This document shows positions 10,686 to 19,112 of a DNA stretch of 64,000 nucleotides, piece after piece. The position numbers and the translations under genes are program-made. The notes under the pieces are model-generated. The model was given only the letters and a program-made list of their open reading frames with translations. It made no database searches and had not been told where the DNA came from. The stretch spans positions 744,001 through 808,000 of the forward strand of contig NZ_CP036273.1 of NCBI RefSeq assembly GCF_007747215.1. Reading direction: 5' to 3'. The DNA comes from Urbifossiella limnaea. GTDB taxonomy: Bacteria > Planctomycetota > Planctomycetia > Gemmatales > Gemmataceae. Position 1 is the stretch's first letter; each line of letters begins with the position of its first letter.

Positions 10686-10828
10686 GGGGCTTCCCGATGC
10701 GGGGTGGCGGTTCGTGGGATTGTACGGGCCCCGCCCGCCCGAATGCCGTTCACCCCGCCCCCCCGGTTGTGCCGATGATACCGGACGTACCGAATCGCCG
10801 CGGGGCGCCCAGAGTGCCGGAACCGGAC

Positions 10829-12145
10829 ATGCCACGTCTCGCCCTCCTGCTCCTTGTCCTGTCGGCGGTCGGGTGCGGGACCGTGCGCGACCGGCTCGGC
10901 CCGCCCACCCCGACCCGGGCCGGGCTCAACGCCCGCGACGTGATCGACCCGCCGGCCCAGGCCGAGGCCGACGCGGCCCTCCAGTCGGGCGACCTGACCC
11001 GCGTGGCCGCGGACGTTCGGACGCGGCTCGCCGCGACGGCCGACCCCGGCCGGCCGCCGCGGCACGTCCTCTGCCTGTCCGGCGGCGGGTCGTTCGGGGC
11101 GTACTCCGCCGGCGTCCTGTGCGGGTGGACCGACGCCGGTACGCGGCCCGAGTTCGACGTGGTGACCGGGATCAGCACCGGGTCGCTGATCGCCCCGCTC
11201 GCCTTCCTCGGCCCGAAGTACGACGCCGACGTGCGGCGGTTCTACACCGACATCCGCACCCGCGACATCTACGTCACCCGGGTCGTCCGCGGGCTGCTGA
11301 GCGAGTCGCTGGCGGACACCCGCCCGCTCGCCAAGAAGCTGGACGAGGTGATCACGCCGGGCCTCGTCGCCGAGATCGCGGAGGAGCACCGCAAGGGGCG
11401 GCGGCTGTACGTCGGCACCACCGAGCTCGAGGGGAAGCGGTTCGTGGTGTGGGACATCGGGGCGATCGCCTGCCGCGCCGACCACGGGGCCACGGACCTG
11501 ATCAAGCGCATCCTCCTCGGGTCGTCGGCCATCCCCGGATTCTTTCCGCCGAGCAAGATCGCGGTGACGGTGGACGGCCGGCCGTTCGTCGAGAAGCACG
11601 GCGACGGCGGGGTGTCGCAGGCCATCTTCTTCCGCCCGCCGCTCCCGGACGCCGGCCCGGCCGCGGCCGCGCCGCTGGCCGGCACGACCGTGTGGTGCGT
11701 GGTGGCCGGGAAGCTGTACGCCGACCCGGAGCCGATCAAGCCGCGGGCGCTGGCGATCGCCGGGGGCAGCGTCGGGGCCGTCATCTACGCCCAGACCCGC
11801 GGCGACCTCCAGCGCATCTTCACCCTCTGCACCCTCACCGGGATGAACTACCGGCTGACCGCCATCCCGGAGGACTTCGACGCCCCGAAGTCGTCGGCCG
11901 AGTTCGAGCGCGGGCCGATGACGCGGATGTTCGACGAGGGCTACCGGCTGGCGCGGACCGGCGAGGCGTGGCGGCTCGCCCCGCCGGGGCTCGGCCCGCG
12001 GGAGTCGCCGCTCACCCGGTCCGGCACCGCCCTGACCGCCCTGCCGCCGCTTGGCGGGTCGGTGCCGACGGTGCCGGGGCCGCCCGGCGTGCTCGCCCCC
12101 GGCCCGCTTGCGATCCCCGCCCCGCCCGGCGTGCTGATGAAGTGA
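10829..12145 (+). CDS. Patatin-like phospholipase, lipoprotein
   Basis: 438 residues. The signal MPRLALLLLVLSAVGC has a lipobox, so the protein should be lipid-anchored. The patatin domain shows LSGGGSFGAYSAGVL (oxyanion loop), GISTGS (nucleophile Ser in GxSxG) and the catalytic Asp in HGDGG. Patatin enzymes are Ser/Asp dyad lipid acyl hydrolases acting on phospholipids or lysophospholipids. The C-terminal ~60 residues are Pro/Gly-rich and probably disordered. ATG 10829 was chosen because it begins the signal peptide. It is transcribed divergently from the sigma-54 activator, with 143 bases between the starts. A second patatin gene lies 3.3 kb downstream. Confidence 0.9.
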   Translation: MPRLALLLLVLSAVGCGTVRDRLGPPTPTRAGLNARDVIDPPAQAEADAALQSGDLTRVAADVRTRLAATADPGRPPRHVLCLSGGGSFGAYSAGVLCGWTDAGTRPEFDVVTGISTGSLIAPLAFLGPKYDADVRRFYTDIRTRDIYVTRVVRGLLSESLADTRPLAKKLDEVITPGLVAEIAEEHRKGRRLYVGTTELEGKRFVVWDIGAIACRADHGATDLIKRILLGSSAIPGFFPPSKIAVTVDGRPFVEKHGDGGVSQAIFFRPPLPDAGPAAAAPLAGTTVWCVVAGKLYADPEPIKPRALAIAGGSVGAVIYAQTRGDLQRIFTLCTLTGMNYRLTAIPEDFDAPKSSAEFERGPMTRMFDEGYRLARTGEAWRLAPPGLGPRESPLTRSGTALTALPPLGGSVPTVPGPPGVLAPGPLAIPAPPGVLMK

Positions 12146-12240: not shown

Positions 12241-13065
12241 ATGCTCCGCTCCGCGCTCGCCGTCGGTTCGCTCCTGCTCGCCGGCGCCGTCCCCGGTCAC
12301 AGCCGCCAGCCGGCCGCCCCCGACAACCTCGACGGCACCTGGGAACTGGTGAGCGTGATCGAGGGCGGCAAGCTGATGTCGGTTGACACGGTGAAGCAGA
12401 CGACCATCAAGGACGGCCGGGTGACGTTCAGCGGCAACGTGATGCAGTTCACGCGCCCCAACGGGGCGGCCCGGGTGGTGGCGTTCGTGACCGACCCGAA
12501 GGCCAGCCCGCGGACGATCGACCTGGCCGGGGCGACGGCGGTCGGCGGGAAGGGCATTTACCAGCGTGACGGCGACAATCTGCTGATCTGCGTGCCCGGC
12601 GCGGACACCGACCCCCGGCCGACCACGTTCGCGTCCCCCACCGGCCGCGGTGACGTGCTGATGACGTTTCGCAAGGCCGCCGCCCCGGCCGTCCTCGGCC
12701 CGCCGCAGCCCGCGCCGCCGGCCCCCGCGAAGACGACCGACGCGGACATCCGGGCCGCCCTCGTCGGCACCTGGGGCCACCAGTCCGACGACCGGATCGT
12801 CCGCCTGACGCTCAACTCGGACGGGTCGTTCGCCACCCTCCTGACCTGGAAGAAGGGCTTCAAAAAACTCTTCGACAGCGAGGAGCGCACGAGCGGGACG
12901 TGGCAGGTGCGCGACGGGGTCGTGGTGATGACGACCACGGCCGCCCCGGAGCGGGCGCAGGTCGGGCAGGTCATGTCCTACCGGGTGGTGTCGGTCGCCG
13001 CCGGCGAGGTGATCTACGTCAACAACCAGACCGGCGAGCGGCGGATCGAGTGGAAGCTCCGCTGA
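12241..13065 (+). CDS. Secreted TIGR03067-type protein, two beta domains
   Basis: 274 residues with a signal peptide (MLRSALAVGSLLLAGAVPG). The first domain (~residues 20-145) has the planctomycete TIGR03067 pattern: NLDGTWELVSVIEGGK at its start, then DGRVTFSG, DPKASPRTIDL, KGIYQRDGDNLLICV and RPTTFASP. A Pro/Ala linker (~155-165) leads to a second lipocalin-like domain beginning ALVGTWGHQSDD and ending in YVNNQTGERRIEWKL. The function of TIGR03067 proteins is unknown. The ATG directly begins the signal peptide. It is flanked by lipoprotein and lipase genes, which suggests an envelope location. Confidence 0.85.
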   Translation: MLRSALAVGSLLLAGAVPGHSRQPAAPDNLDGTWELVSVIEGGKLMSVDTVKQTTIKDGRVTFSGNVMQFTRPNGAARVVAFVTDPKASPRTIDLAGATAVGGKGIYQRDGDNLLICVPGADTDPRPTTFASPTGRGDVLMTFRKAAAPAVLGPPQPAPPAPAKTTDADIRAALVGTWGHQSDDRIVRLTLNSDGSFATLLTWKKGFKKLFDSEERTSGTWQVRDGVVVMTTTAAPERAQVGQVMSYRVVSVAAGEVIYVNNQTGERRIEWKLR

Positions 13066-13088: not shown

Positions 13089-14183
13089 TCAGTTCGCCTG
13101 AATGGTGATGACCGGCAGGCTCTCCCGCGCCCCGGTGTCCGACAGCGCCAGCAGGACCAGCAGGTAGGCCAGGGTCCGCTTCGACTCGAAGTCGGTCTTC
13201 TCGACCCAGAACCAGTACCCCTCGTAGCACACGGCGACGAACGGGTCGCACGGCCGCGTCCGGCTGCTGCGGACGTGGAACCGCGGGGTGCCGCGGTCGC
13301 CGCCCGGGTCGCCGACCGCGGGGGCGATCCCGGCCGCCTGGTGCTCGACCGGCACGTCCACGCACGTGCCCAGCTCCGACAGGATGCGGAGGACGGACCG
13401 GGACAGGATGGCGATCTCGTTCGGCCGCTCCGCCGTCGCCCCGAACGTCACCCGGAAGTCCTTCCGCCCGGGGTCCAACCGGAGCGACCGGCGCACGTCG
13501 GTCAGCTCGGCGGCGAGTTCGGGGTCGATGTTCTCGTCCCGGAAGAAGAAGCTGACGGCGTCCTTCTTGTCCTTGTCTTGCTCGACCCGGATGCCGGCGT
13601 GCCCCGAGATCTGGGCCTTGCGCATCGCCCGCGTCATCTGGGTGAACGCGGGGTCGGCCGGCCGGAGCTGGCCGCCGGACACGGACCGGTTGCGGACCCC
13701 GTTGATCGACTCCACCGTCAGGTCGAACACCAGGTCGGCCGGGTACCCCGACTGGAGCAGGAACAGGACCGACCCCGGGTTGATTGGGGACGTGATGTTC
13801 CGGATGAACTGCGAGCCGGTCTGGGGCTGGTAGGAGATCGTCGGGCGGTCCTGGTAGGCGCCCTGGAAGTTCAGCCCCGCCCCGAGCTGCTGGGCGAACG
13901 TGGCCGCCGGGTTGGTCGGCGGGCTGATCGCCCCGGTGGCCACGGCCTGGCCCTGGAGGGTGTACCCGCTGGTGATCTGCGGGACGTCCAGGAAGAACGG
14001 GGTGTCGGCGTACCGCAGCTTGACCACGTTCAGGAGCGTCTGCTCCTTCCACGACACGGCGACCGCCTCGTTGTACGCCGCCCGGTCGGCGACGACCGTC
14101 CGCGGGCCGATGTGCTTGCACCCGCCGCCCCCGGCGAGGAGCGCGGCCGCGAGGAGGACCGGGACGGGCGCTCGCGGCGGCAT
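13089..14183 (-). CDS. Lipoprotein of unknown function
   Basis: 364 residues. The N-terminus ([17 protein letters not shown]) is a lipoprotein signal with the modified Cys at about residue 22. The mature part begins RTVVADRAAYNEAVAVSWKEQTLLNVVKLRYADTPFFLDV. A similar opening and a similar ending (tyrosine/tryptophan-rich FVAVCYEGYWFWVEKTDF, then LAYLLVLLALSDTGA…LPVITIQA) recur in uncharacterised lipoproteins of several Gram-negative groups, as far as I recall; I know no assigned function. It converges on the TIGR03067 gene with 23 bases between stops and diverges from the DUF4105 gene. Its place among lipid-modification genes is the only functional hint. Confidence 0.8.
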   Translation of the reverse strand: MPPRAPVPVLLAAALLAGGGGCKHIGPRTVVADRAAYNEAVAVSWKEQTLLNVVKLRYADTPFFLDVPQITSGYTLQGQAVATGAISPPTNPAATFAQQLGAGLNFQGAYQDRPTISYQPQTGSQFIRNITSPINPGSVLFLLQSGYPADLVFDLTVESINGVRNRSVSGGQLRPADPAFTQMTRAMRKAQISGHAGIRVEQDKDKKDAVSFFFRDENIDPELAAELTDVRRSLRLDPGRKDFRVTFGATAERPNEIAILSRSVLRILSELGTCVDVPVEHQAAGIAPAVGDPGGDRGTPRFHVRSSRTRPCDPFVAVCYEGYWFWVEKTDFESKRTLAYLLVLLALSDTGARESLPVITIQAN

Positions 14184-14424: not shown

Positions 14425-15420
14425 ATGGGCCTCTTCCCGGAGTGGGTCGGTTCCGCCCTCATGCTCGCGGCCGCCGCCGGGGTCACCCTCTGGACGGCCG
14501 GGGCGGTCTACTACGACGTGTGCGGCGGGGCGCGGTGGGGCCGCGCGGTCGCGGCCGCATGGGTCGTCGCGGTCGTCGTCGCGGTCCTCGTGTGGCAGCC
14601 GCTCTGGCAGCCGGTCGCCGCCCTGCTCGGGGTGGTCGCGGTGTTCCTGGTGTGGTGGTTCGGGCAGCGGCCGCGGCACGACCGCGACTGGGACCCGGCC
14701 GTGGCCGTGCTGCCGCGGGCGGTGCGCGACGGCGACACGGTCACGGTCGAGCACGTCCGCAACTTCGAGTACCGCTCGCCGACCGACTTCGACGCCCGGT
14801 ACGAGACGCGCACGTACCGCCTCGCCAACCTGCGAGGCGTGGACATCGTGTTCTTCAACTGGGGCTCGCCGTGGATGAGCCACCCGGTCATGGTGTTCGA
14901 CTGCGGCCCGGACGGCCGGCTGTGCTTCTCGATCGAGGTGCGGTACCGGCGGGGGCAGGACTACTCGGTCGTCCGCAGCCTGTTTCGGCAACAGGAGATG
15001 ATCGTCGTCGCCGCGGACGAGCGGGACGTGATCCTGCGCCGGACGAAGTTCGAGCCGCGGCAGGCGGCCCACCTGTACCGGCTCACCACCACCCCCGACG
15101 AGGTGCGGACGGCGTTCCTGGACTACGTCGGGATGGTCAACCGCATCCACGCCCGGCCGCGGTGGTATCATGGGGTGTGCGCGAACTGCACCACCACGTA
15201 CTACCGGCTCCCGAACAGCCGGTGGCGGCTCGACTGGCGGGTGATCGCCAACGGCCGGCTGGACGAGGCCCTGTACGCGGACGGGCGGCTCGACCGCGGC
15301 GTGCCGTTCGCCGACCTCCGCCGGGCCGCGTACCTCACCGACGTCACCAACGTCACCCCCGAGGCCGGGTTCGGGGACCACCTCCGCCGCGAGCTCGAAA
15401 GGCGCCGTCATGGACACTGA
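14425..15420 (+). CDS. DUF4105 (Lnb N-terminal-like) membrane protein
   Basis: 331 residues. Three hydrophobic segments in the first ~85 residues (ALMLAAAAGVTLWTAGAVY; AVAAAWVVAVVVAVLVW; VAALLGVVAVFLVWWFG) are followed by a DUF4105 domain (PF13387). The domain carries the family landmarks SHPVMVFDC, DYSVVRSLFRQQEMIVV-ADERD and YHGVCANCTTTYY. PF13387 is the N-terminal periplasmic domain of Lnb, a lipoprotein N-acyltransferase family described in other Gram-negative bacteria; the conserved His and the Cys of NCTT are the likely active residues (inference). ATG 14425 was chosen as the start just before the first helix; the upstream frame is charged and non-conserved in appearance. The 3' end overlaps the next gene by 11 bases, indicating coupled translation with a phospholipase. 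Confidence 0.85.
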   Translation: MGLFPEWVGSALMLAAAAGVTLWTAGAVYYDVCGGARWGRAVAAAWVVAVVVAVLVWQPLWQPVAALLGVVAVFLVWWFGQRPRHDRDWDPAVAVLPRAVRDGDTVTVEHVRNFEYRSPTDFDARYETRTYRLANLRGVDIVFFNWGSPWMSHPVMVFDCGPDGRLCFSIEVRYRRGQDYSVVRSLFRQQEMIVVAADERDVILRRTKFEPRQAAHLYRLTTTPDEVRTAFLDYVGMVNRIHARPRWYHGVCANCTTTYYRLPNSRWRLDWRVIANGRLDEALYADGRLDRGVPFADLRRAAYLTDVTNVTPEAGFGDHLRRELERRRHGH

Positions 15421-17251
15421 CATCCTCGCCCTGGTGAGGATCCACGAGTACTTCCGCGGGATCTCCGAGGAGGCGATGGCCGACGTGCTCGCCGCCGCCC
15501 GGGTGCGGACGTTCGCGGCCGGCGACGTGGTCCACCAGCCGGACGACCCGTTGGTGACGGTCGGGTTCATCCTGCGGGGCCGGCTCAAGTCGGTGAAGGT
15601 GGACGCGGCGGGGCGGGAGTCGCTGTTGCGGGTGTTCAACCGCGGCGAGCAGTACGGGATGATGCTCGGGGTGCTGGCCGAGCCGGTCCCGGTCCGGGTG
15701 TTCGCGCTCGAGCCGGCCACGGTACTGGAGGTGGACTACGAAACGGCGATGGAACTCACCCTTCGCCACCCGGACCTGCGCCAGTTGTGGCTGAAGACGT
15801 ACGCCGGGACCCTACGCAACCAACTCTTCGGGAGCACCCGCTCGAAGGCCCCGATGATGCTCGGGCTCGTCCACGACTCCCCGGCGACCGCGGCGGCCGC
15901 CCGCCGGCTGGTGGACCGCCTCCGGGGGATCGGCGAGACGCTCGGGGTGTTCAGCGACTCGGACGAGTGGCGGGGGGTGGCGGGGATTCGGTTCCGGTCG
16001 ATGGTCGAAGACGGCCGGATGCTGGAGCCGGAGGAGATCCGCCGGCAGACGGTCGAGTGGAAGGACGTCAACCGGATCGTGTTCGACCTCCGGCTGGACC
16101 AGCCGTCGGAGCGTGTGACGCGGCTGTTCGAGATGGCGGACCGGCTGGTGTACTTCGTCCCGGCGGCCGCCGGCGCGGCGGCGGTCGCCCGGCTCCGAGC
16201 GCTGGGGGTGCCGGCCCGCGGGTGGCGGGACAAGGTGTGCATCGCGTGGCTGCTGGACGCCGCCCCGCCGGTGGCCCCGGCCGTGCCCGGGCTCGCCGAG
16301 GTGGTGCGGCGCACCTTCACCCTCGTCGGCCCGGCCCTTCAACTCCCCTGGGGGCGGGCCGCGGCGGGCGGGCTGGAGCGGCTCGTCCACGACCTCCGCG
16401 GGGTCCGCATCGGGGTGGCCCTCGGCGGCGGGGCGGCCCGCGGCATGACCCACCTCGGGGTGCTCAAGGCGCTGGAACAGAGCGGCATCGTGGTGGACAT
16501 GATCGCCGGCACCAGCGCCGGGGCGATGACCGGCATCATGTACGCCTCCGGCATCGACCCGGACCACAACGCCGCCAGCTTCGCCGCCGACCTGCGGCCG
16601 TCGTGGCTGTTCCGCCGGCTCCCCGCCGGCGACCAGTGGTACCTCCTCTACAAGTACCGCCGCGGGCACTTCGACCCGATGCTCCGCCCCTACCTCCACG
16701 ACTGGACGCTGGAGCAGCTGGCCGTGCCGTGCCTGTCGGTGACGGTGGACCTGGTGGGCGGGAACTCGGTCGTCCGCGACCACGGGGACGCCGTCCACGC
16801 GATCCTGGAGAGTATCAACCTGCCCGTCCTGTCGGTCCCGATCCTGCGGAACGGCCAGGCCCTCATCGACGGCGGGCTGGTGAACAACATCCCCGCCGAC
16901 GTGCTGGTCGCGGCCGGGTGCAACCTCGTGATCGCGGTGAGCGTGACGGCCAAGATGGAAAAGGCGTTCGGCGACATCACCCCGGACCGCCCGGCCGCTG
17001 CGGCGCGGAAGCCGTCGGCCGTGAAGACGATCCTCCGCAGCCTGCTGGTCCAGAACCACAGCCTGAACGCTATCGGGGTGCAGCCGGCCGACGTGGTGAT
17101 TGAGCCGGACGTGACCGGGTTCGAGCTGACGGCGTTCACCCGGGCGACGGAGATGGCCGCGATCGGCGAGGCCGCCGCGCTCGAACAGGTGCCGCGGATC
17201 CGCCAGCTGCTGACCCGCCTCGACCCCCAGCTGTTCCCGCCGGCCGGCTGA
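15410..17251 (+). CDS. Cyclic-nucleotide-binding-domain patatin phospholipase (NTE-like)
   Basis: 613 residues. Residues ~1-130 form a cNMP-binding-type beta barrel (FAAGDVVHQPDDPLVTVGFILRGRLKSV… LLRVFNRGEQYGMM). Residues ~135-300 form a middle domain with a P-loop-like fold, and ~325-600 are the patatin domain: GVALGGGAARGMTHLGVL, nucleophile GTSAG and catalytic Asp in IDGGLVNNIP. This is the layout of neuropathy-target-esterase-type lysophospholipases. The barrel lacks an obvious canonical cAMP-phosphate loop, so ligand binding is uncertain. The start overlaps the DUF4105 gene by 11 bases. If that gene N-acylates lipoproteins from phospholipid, this enzyme could dispose of the resulting lysophospholipid; that link is inference. 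Confidence 0.92.
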   Translation: MDTDILALVRIHEYFRGISEEAMADVLAAARVRTFAAGDVVHQPDDPLVTVGFILRGRLKSVKVDAAGRESLLRVFNRGEQYGMMLGVLAEPVPVRVFALEPATVLEVDYETAMELTLRHPDLRQLWLKTYAGTLRNQLFGSTRSKAPMMLGLVHDSPATAAAARRLVDRLRGIGETLGVFSDSDEWRGVAGIRFRSMVEDGRMLEPEEIRRQTVEWKDVNRIVFDLRLDQPSERVTRLFEMADRLVYFVPAAAGAAAVARLRALGVPARGWRDKVCIAWLLDAAPPVAPAVPGLAEVVRRTFTLVGPALQLPWGRAAAGGLERLVHDLRGVRIGVALGGGAARGMTHLGVLKALEQSGIVVDMIAGTSAGAMTGIMYASGIDPDHNAASFAADLRPSWLFRRLPAGDQWYLLYKYRRGHFDPMLRPYLHDWTLEQLAVPCLSVTVDLVGGNSVVRDHGDAVHAILESINLPVLSVPILRNGQALIDGGLVNNIPADVLVAAGCNLVIAVSVTAKMEKAFGDITPDRPAAAARKPSAVKTILRSLLVQNHSLNAIGVQPADVVIEPDVTGFELTAFTRATEMAAIGEAAALEQVPRIRQLLTRLDPQLFPPAG

Positions 17252-17317: not shown

Positions 17318-18205
17318 ATGCTCCCGGCCGACGTGCTCCGACAGGTCCGACGACTCCACCTGCGGGCGCGGCGCGCCGTCCAGACCGTCCTCGGCGGCGA
17401 GTACCGCTCCGCGTTCAAGGGCGCCGGCCTGTCGTTCGAGGAGGTGCGGGCGTATCAGCCCGGCGACGACGTCCGTGCCATCGACTGGAACGTCACCGCC
17501 CGCACCGGCCAGCCGTTCATCAAGCGGTTCGTCGAGGAGCGCGAGCTGACGCTGCTGCTGGTCGTGGACGTGTCGGGGAGCCAGCGGTTCGGCACCGGGC
17601 CGACCACCAAGCGCGCCGCCGCCGCCGAGCTGGCGGCGCTGCTGTCGCTGGCCGCGGCCGGGAACAACGACCGCGTCGGGCTCGTCGCCTTCAGCACGCA
17701 GGTCGAGCGGTTCGTGCGGCCGGACAAGGGGCCGCGGCACGTCCTCCGGCTGCTCCGCGACATCCTGGCGTTCGAGCCCGAGCACAAGGGGACCGACCTG
17801 GCCGCGGCGCTCGACTTCCTCAACAAGGTGCAGCGGCGGCGGGCGGTGGTGTTCCTGCTGAGCGACTTCCTCGGCGGCGGGTACGAGCGCGCCTTCCGCC
17901 GCACCGCCCGCAAGCACGACCTCGTGGCGGTGCGCACGTCCGACCCGCGCGAACGCACCTGGCCGGCGGCGGGGCTGGTGCGGCTCGAAGACGCCGAGAC
18001 GCGCGAGCAACTGGTGATCGACACGGGCAGCCGGCGGTTCCGGGAGGGGTTCGCGGCGCGGGCGGCGGCGCGGGACGCGGCGTTCCTGAAGCTCGCCCGC
18101 GGGGCCGGGGCCGACGTGATCGAGGCCGGCACCGACGGCCGGCACTTCGACGCGCTCCTGGGCTTCTTCCGCGCCCGCGACCGCCGCCGCCGCGGGGGGC
18201 ACTGA
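17318..18205 (+). CDS. DUF58 domain protein (vWA-like)
   Basis: 295 residues. The N-terminal half has the DUF58 (PF01882) signature GEYRSAFKGAGLSFEEVRAYQPGDDVRAIDWNVTAR. The C-terminal half is a von Willebrand A-like fold with the metal site LLVVDVSGS and a later FLLSDFLGGG. Such proteins normally partner MoxR-type AAA+ ATPases and BatA/BatD-like membrane proteins, probably in cofactor insertion or envelope assembly. Here the next gene is a membrane protein of the right type, but no MoxR gene is present in the flanks. A stem-loop abuts the start codon. Confidence 0.92.
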   Translation: MLPADVLRQVRRLHLRARRAVQTVLGGEYRSAFKGAGLSFEEVRAYQPGDDVRAIDWNVTARTGQPFIKRFVEERELTLLLVVDVSGSQRFGTGPTTKRAAAAELAALLSLAAAGNNDRVGLVAFSTQVERFVRPDKGPRHVLRLLRDILAFEPEHKGTDLAAALDFLNKVQRRRAVVFLLSDFLGGGYERAFRRTARKHDLVAVRTSDPRERTWPAAGLVRLEDAETREQLVIDTGSRRFREGFAARAAARDAAFLKLARGAGADVIEAGTDGRHFDALLGFFRARDRRRRGGH

Positions 18206-18209
18206 CGTG

Positions 18210-19112
18210 ATGCCGCGGCCCGCCGGCCTGCCCCTCCTGCTCCTCCCGCTCCTCCTCGCGGCGCAGCCGGCCGGCGTCGTGCCGCAGGCGGCCGTCGCCC
18301 CCGACGCCCTCTGGCTCGCCGACACCGCCCGCCTCACCGTCACCGTCGAGGGGCCGGCCCCGCTCCGCGTCGAGCTGCCCGAGAAGGCCGACGAGTTGCT
18401 CGACGACGCCAGCCGCCGCGTCTGGAAGATCGACCAGCCCGGCCCGCCCGCCGTCACCCCCCTCGACGGCGGCCGCGAGCGCTGGTCGCGCACGTACCGC
18501 CTGTCGCCGTTCGTCCCCGGCGACTCCGTGCCGGTCGGCTTCGACCCGGTGAAGGTCCGCGCCGGCGGCGCCGCCTTCGACACCACCTTCCCGACCGTTG
18601 CCGTCGTGGTGAAGGCCAGCGGCACGCCGCCGACGCTCGAGGGCGTCGAGGTGCGCGGCATCGAGGACTTGCCGCCGGTCACGCCGCCGCCGCCCGGGCC
18701 GGTCGGGTGGGTGCTGGCGGGCGTGCTCGGGGCGGTGTTCGCGGCGGGAATCGTCGCGGGGCTGGTGCGGAAGTGGCGGGCGAAGCCGCCGGCCCCGCCG
18801 CCGGTCGTGCGGGCGTGGGCCGAACTCGACCGCGCCGCCGCCGCGCCGCCCGGCCCGGCCGCCGAGCGCGTCGCGGCGGCGCTGCGCGAGTACGCGGCCC
18901 GGCGGTTCGGCGTGCCGGCGTTGCACCTGACCACCGCCGAACTCGCCGCCGCCCCGTGGCCCGAGCACTTCCCGGCCGACGTCGTGGCCGCCCTCGCCGA
19001 CATTCTCGCGGCGTGCGACCGGGCCAAGTTCGCCGCCGAGGCGCCGGCCGCCGACCTGATCGGGCCGGCCCGCAGCTGGGTCACGGCGGCGGAGGCGCAG
19101 GTCCGGCCGTGA
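18210..19112 (+). CDS. Membrane protein partner of DUF58 (BatD/DUF4381-like)
   Basis: About 300 residues: signal peptide (GLPLLLLPLLLAAQPAG), an extracytoplasmic beta-rich domain (ALWLADTARLTVTVEGPAPL… FVPGDSVPVGF), a Pro linker (PPVTPPPPGPVG), one transmembrane helix (~170-195, VLAGVLGAVFAAGIVAGLV) and a cytoplasmic helical tail. This layout fits the BatD/DUF4381 proteins found beside DUF58 genes; the family call is by architecture only. A GTG at 18207 directly precedes the ATG at 18210 and either may be used; G-rich sequence lies 7-10 bases upstream. It starts 4 bases after the DUF58 stop, so the two form an operon. Its 3' end overlaps the converging PH-domain gene by 32 bases. Confidence 0.82.
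   Translation: MPRPAGLPLLLLPLLLAAQPAGVVPQAAVAPDALWLADTARLTVTVEGPAPLRVELPEKADELLDDASRRVWKIDQPGPPAVTPLDGGRERWSRTYRLSPFVPGDSVPVGFDPVKVRAGGAAFDTTFPTVAVVVKASGTPPTLEGVEVRGIEDLPPVTPPPPGPVGWVLAGVLGAVFAAGIVAGLVRKWRAKPPAPPPVVRAWAELDRAAAAPPGPAAERVAAALREYAARRFGVPALHLTTAELAAAPWPEHFPADVVAALADILAACDRAKFAAEAPAADLIGPARSWVTAAEAQVRP

Follow-up and report, generated by a model that had tools for sequence, protein, structure and literature searches.

A conserved overlapping DUF4105–patatin gene pair in planctomycetes: a possible accessory module for envelope phospholipid remodelling

The gene pair and its neighbourhood

The window, a stretch of 64,000 nucleotides from the 7.8-Mb, single-contig genome of Urbifossiella limnaea, carries two overlapping plus-strand genes, both of which are borne out as real genes by the ORF calls and by matches to Pfam profiles. 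The upstream gene (14425..15420) codes for a membrane-anchored protein of 331 residues belonging to the Lnb_N/DUF4105 family, in which three N-terminal helices are followed by the predicted catalytic domain. The downstream gene (15410..17251) codes for a protein of 613 residues without a signal peptide, which combines a cyclic-nucleotide-binding-like (CNB) domain, a middle alpha/beta domain and a patatin lipase domain. The 11-nt overlap between them (ATGGACACTGA; 15410..15420, plus strand), already claimed in an earlier sequence-only reading of this locus, is indeed present, and an SD-like GAAAGG for the patatin gene (15397..15402, plus strand) lies within the DUF4105 coding sequence, placed 7 nt ahead of the patatin start codon, ATG. 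Each of the ten intact junctions that were read from Gemmataceae and Isosphaeraceae (the window, L048–L053, L055, L056 and G012) has an overlap of exactly 11 nt, as does one decayed locus (L054), and the protein identity among the loci sharing it is 56–70%. Most relatives also display GA(A/G)AGG or a near variant at the same place in the junction. Departures are seen at L059, where the overlap is 4 nt, and at L058, where the two genes are instead separated by a 59-nt gap. A scan for promoters and terminators found nothing. The overlap itself points to translational coupling of the two genes.

Upstream of the pair in the window lie a gene for a second patatin (10697-12145), which has a probable lipoprotein signal (LSAVGC) and is likely to be an envelope-anchored lipase, a gene for a TIGR03067 protein (12241-13065), and a minus-strand gene with a weak lipobox, GGGGC (13089-14183). 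Directly downstream, on the same strand as the pair, is a DUF58/vWA gene and, after it, a weak match to DUF4381 (17318-19112), an order which we take to be a Bat-like arrangement. The sequence-only reading had seen two lipoprotein genes and another patatin within 4 kb, which is only partly right, the second patatin being itself a probable lipoprotein. No other locus with the pair shares the flanking genes found in the window, and neither the second patatin nor the TIGR03067 or weak-lipobox gene recurs beside the pair in relatives. A larger conserved locus, taking in the lipoproteins of the window, the second patatin, a sigma-54 activator and the DUF58 genes, was rejected.

Domain architecture and predicted active sites

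The DUF4105 protein scores 83.5 bits on the Pfam Lnb_N profile, for which the cut-off is 22.2. Its AlphaFold model (pLDDT 86) has three helices followed by a mixed domain and, along with hydropathy, predicts transmembrane segments at residues 3-32, 37-56 and 61-79 (14431..14661, plus strand). The catalytic domain is hence C-terminal to the helices, as against the N-terminal periplasmic domain implied by the Pfam naming of Lnb_N. The putative catalytic residues, His153 in an MSHP motif (codon 14881..14883) and Cys255 in an NCTT motif (codon 15187..15189, both plus strand), do not vary among 18 homologs with identities as low as 33%, and their proposed role rests on analogy (PMC12994826). His precedes Cys, the order that the same source describes for permuted NlpC/P60 enzymes; there, DUF4105 and its permuted NlpC/P60 relatives are said to act on lipids, and a lipid-acyltransferase role is proposed (PMC12994826). 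A plain Foldseek search of the model against the PDB and viral models gave no significant match. In a second structure comparison the top chain was 3kw0, a cysteine peptidase of B. cereus, with a Z of 6.5 that is below the tool's safe level (rmsd 3.9 over 133 residues) yet well ahead of the following row, which had a Z of 4.1. The protein resembles the permuted NlpC/P60 lipid enzymes (YiiX-like, LRAT/HRASLS and Tox-Act1) in its His-before-Cys order and, tentatively, in the match to 3kw0; unlike them, it is membrane-anchored, has no toxin or secretion context, and is far apart in sequence.

The patatin protein scores 91 bits against the Pfam Patatin profile and 43 bits against cNMP_binding. Its single CNB domain (15506..15760, plus strand) is Crp/Fnr-like and N-terminal to the patatin domain, and the phosphate-binding Arg of the PBC motif is not seen in any of the 11 sequences compared. 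In the patatin domain (16418..16906, plus strand) the GGGAARG oxyanion loop, Ser369 of the GTSAG motif (codon 16514-16516) and Asp487 of the DGG motif (codon 16868-16870, both plus strand) are invariant across the 11 sequences. Structure searches recovered 5fya/5fqu and Crp-like chains; the closest solved patatin is PlpD, at about 30% identity, and not NTE. The succession of CNB, middle domain and patatin domain with a Ser-Asp dyad is shared with bacterial CNB-patatins and with NTE (PNPLA6/7). Animal NTE carries more than one CNB domain and is anchored to the membrane at its N-terminus; by contrast, the protein described here has one CNB domain, no membrane anchor and no discernible phosphate-binding Arg. 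While both protein families are already known, a full-text search of the DUF4105 literature, with a coverage that leaves most subscription journals outside, returned no description of their fixed pairing.

Distribution and evolution of the pair

We surveyed 95 genomes of the host's family, counting strong matches, and found DUF4105 in nine of them and the patatin in the same nine; the remaining 86 are without any Lnb_N protein. The two genes are adjacent at nine loci in eight of the nine carriers. In the ninth carrier (G089), each gene is intact only on a different contig: one contig (C741 and C223 being the two; loci L046 and L047) has an intact DUF4105 gene followed by merely 99 codons of the patatin, while on the other the patatin is intact and all that remains of DUF4105 ahead of it is its C-terminal part. 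These two loci have 445 bp around the junction in common, at 94% identity, with a tag of 30 bp close to each break point, and may represent a reciprocal decay of the pair, although in such a fragmented MAG an assembly effect is also possible. Four further adjacent pairs were recovered from an Isosphaeraceae MAG, Singulisphaera and two other planctomycete MAGs. The co-occurrence in the same nine genomes and the constant overlap rule out chance adjacency, and the pairing is far beyond what chance would give; that the same 11-base overlap is kept across two planctomycete families means that the two products very likely work together.

In a tree of 32 DUF4105 proteins the paired ones fall in a single, well-supported clade of 16 (100/97), which also holds three unpaired members: a protein designated L057, the host's second copy and the decayed copy of G089. 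This is compatible with a single origin of the pairing followed by a few losses. The host's second DUF4105 gene (C1:7196796-7197785; L017, L037), which has a Pfam Lnb_N score of 92.4 bits and is 67% identical to the window copy, has no patatin; it is followed by a gene for a coiled-coil-like membrane protein of 267 residues, a relative of which sits near the pair in three genomes of the genus g7. L057 itself is encoded on a Gammaproteobacteria-labelled contig beside a cytochrome d1-type gene, and its place within the planctomycete clade may reflect transfer or mis-binning.

No patatin was found next to DUF4105 in the rhizobial, Chelatococcus, Acinetobacter and Roseobacter homologs, nor in most of the planctomycete ones, including those of Pirellulaceae, nor on proteobacterial plasmids; a general linkage of the two families in bacteria was rejected on account of these distant homologs. 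Conversely, among 392 genomes sampled across the phylum there is just one other good ortholog of the patatin (45%), in a genome lacking DUF4105 (G475; locus L143, 7062-8882, downstream of a DUF389 membrane protein), and it was not accepted as a clean unpaired ortholog because of an in-frame TAG within its CNB region. A separation of the pair in relatives, which the sequence-only reading had named as evidence against itself, is encountered only at the edges, in the host's own second copy, in L057, in the distant homologs and in the G475 patatin. The pair is accessory and sporadically inherited.

Membrane sidedness and possible functions

The evidence as to the membrane face of the DUF4105 domain is mixed. 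Three homologs (L062-L064) have a lipoprotein signal peptide at their start, yet retain the PSHDRDW segment that follows helix 3 in the window protein, and the rhizobial homologs have an N-in/C-out charge pattern; together these indicate that the domain is probably extracytoplasmic. In 11 homologs from the paired clade K/R residues are nearly absent ahead of helix 1 and in the loop joining helices 2 and 3 but occur in loop 1 and after helix 3, a pattern that, taken alone, would favour a cytoplasmic catalytic domain. As the patatin has neither an export signal nor a hydrophobic N-terminus, the two catalytic domains are, to judge from these lipoprotein-type homologs, probably on opposite faces of the membrane. 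A model search of the host genome found neither an LplT-type flippase nor Aas above cut-off, so that lysophospholipid, if made outside, would have no recognised route to a cytoplasmic patatin.

According to the proposal made in the sequence-only reading, lipoproteins would be N-acylated by the DUF4105 protein and the patatin would dispose of the lysophospholipid left over, the whole being an undescribed lipoprotein-maturation locus. It draws on the membership of the protein in the same Pfam family as the Bacteroides Lnb, a DUF4105 protein reported as the lipoprotein N-acyltransferase of that genus and as one that Lnt has displaced in three genomic contexts (cited in PMC12994826), and on the lysophospholipid left by N-acylation of the Lnt type (PMC10404611). 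The likeness to Lnb (PF13387) extends to a Pfam domain well above the gathering score and to the conserved His and then Cys; the differences are that here the helices precede the domain, the partner is a patatin, the pair is sporadic and accessory, and Lnt is present. Indeed, the host genome codes for a canonical Lnt (254 bits, with the E/K/C motif residues), and Lnt is above its curated cut-off in all nine carriers, so that DUF4105 as a substitute for Lnt was rejected for these genomes. With 86 of 95 relatives lacking Lnb_N altogether, the pair is rather an accessory than a replacement. Since, moreover, the nearby lipoprotein genes and the second patatin are not conserved and the patatin probably acts on the other membrane face, we regard this proposal as unlikely, and the notion of a maturation locus is not supported. 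What does find support in it is that the coupling is conserved and that both proteins come from families acting on phospholipid acyl chains.

We instead favour, at a probability of roughly 45%, the tentative view that the pair forms one co-translated, sporadically inherited module for envelope phospholipid remodelling, which would run beside Lnt and not instead of it. Here the DUF4105 protein, anchored by its three N-terminal helices with its permuted NlpC/P60-type Cys/His domain exposed, most likely outside the cytoplasm, would draw an acyl chain from a phospholipid, hold it in thioester linkage to its Cys and hand it over to an acceptor or to water, so that a lysophospholipid remains. The 11-nt overlap would keep the CNB-patatin in a fixed ratio to it, and the patatin would serve as a Ser/Asp lysophospholipase or phospholipase A at the cytoplasmic face, deacylating the lysophospholipid or damaged phospholipid. 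This is supported by the co-occurrence in 9 of 95 genomes, the four outside pairs, the constant overlap amid unshared flanks and the reciprocal decay in G089, as well as by the invariant His153/Cys255 and Ser369/Asp487, the 3kw0 match and the precedents in PMC12994826 and PMC10404611. Against it count the charge pattern of the clade, the possibly different membrane faces, the want of an LplT, the 3kw0 score below the safe level and the second DUF4105 gene with no patatin. It is conceivable, if rather improbable, that the pair is more specifically a second, Lnt-independent lipid N-acylation system, wherein a subset of lipoproteins or an aminolipid serves as a dedicated amine acceptor that DUF4105 acylates, with the patatin coupled to it disposing of the by-product in fixed stoichiometry.

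Two other explanations compete with the remodelling module. In several genomes of the genus g7 (L040-L045) the pair lies near an island of phosphoketolase, lactate dehydrogenase, phosphoglucomutase or acetate kinase genes, in some cases along with a sensor kinase and a response regulator, which suggests an energy- or oxygen-stress regulon. Both genes might be needed in a single condition, such as oxygen limitation, with no substrate in common, and the Crp/Fnr-like CNB domain of the patatin would suit such a role. The island is, however, found neither in the window nor around the Isosphaeraceae and other pairs, where the exact overlap is nonetheless kept, and a coupling conserved across families suggests that stoichiometry matters; hence we consider a mere stress cassette somewhat unlikely. 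The K/R distribution around the helices in the 11 homologs would accord with a DUF4105 domain that faces the cytoplasm and acts there as an LRAT/HRASLS-like phospholipase A/acyltransferase on the same lipids as the patatin. With PSHDRDW being common to the homologs with lipoprotein signals and the rhizobial homologs showing the opposite charges, this alternative appears very improbable.

A functional parallel to the proposed remodelling module is offered by the E. coli Lnt and its LplT/Aas recycling route, in which acyl transfer outside the cytoplasm likewise yields a lysophospholipid for another protein to handle, as is predicted here; unlike that route, the partner is a hydrolase-type patatin in place of a flippase and a re-acylating enzyme, and LplT is not found. 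The pair bears on the question of whether, in the absence of LplT, the lysophospholipid produced by acyl transfer in the envelope has to be disposed of by an enzyme of its own. DUF4105 proteins occur in Lnt-containing bacteria on both chromosomes and plasmids, where to our knowledge no role has been established; the constant partner and the conserved overlap in planctomycetes provide a testable clue, namely phospholipid deacylation, to the function of the members outside Bacteroides. Among the plasmid-borne copies, that of the Acinetobacter lwoffii plasmid pH7-250 (L147, 3713-4762) has a predicted trimethoprim-resistance gene (dfrA41) directly upstream and IS elements nearby; this may be compared with PMC10318531, where a "resistance transporters" context is suggested for DUF4105.
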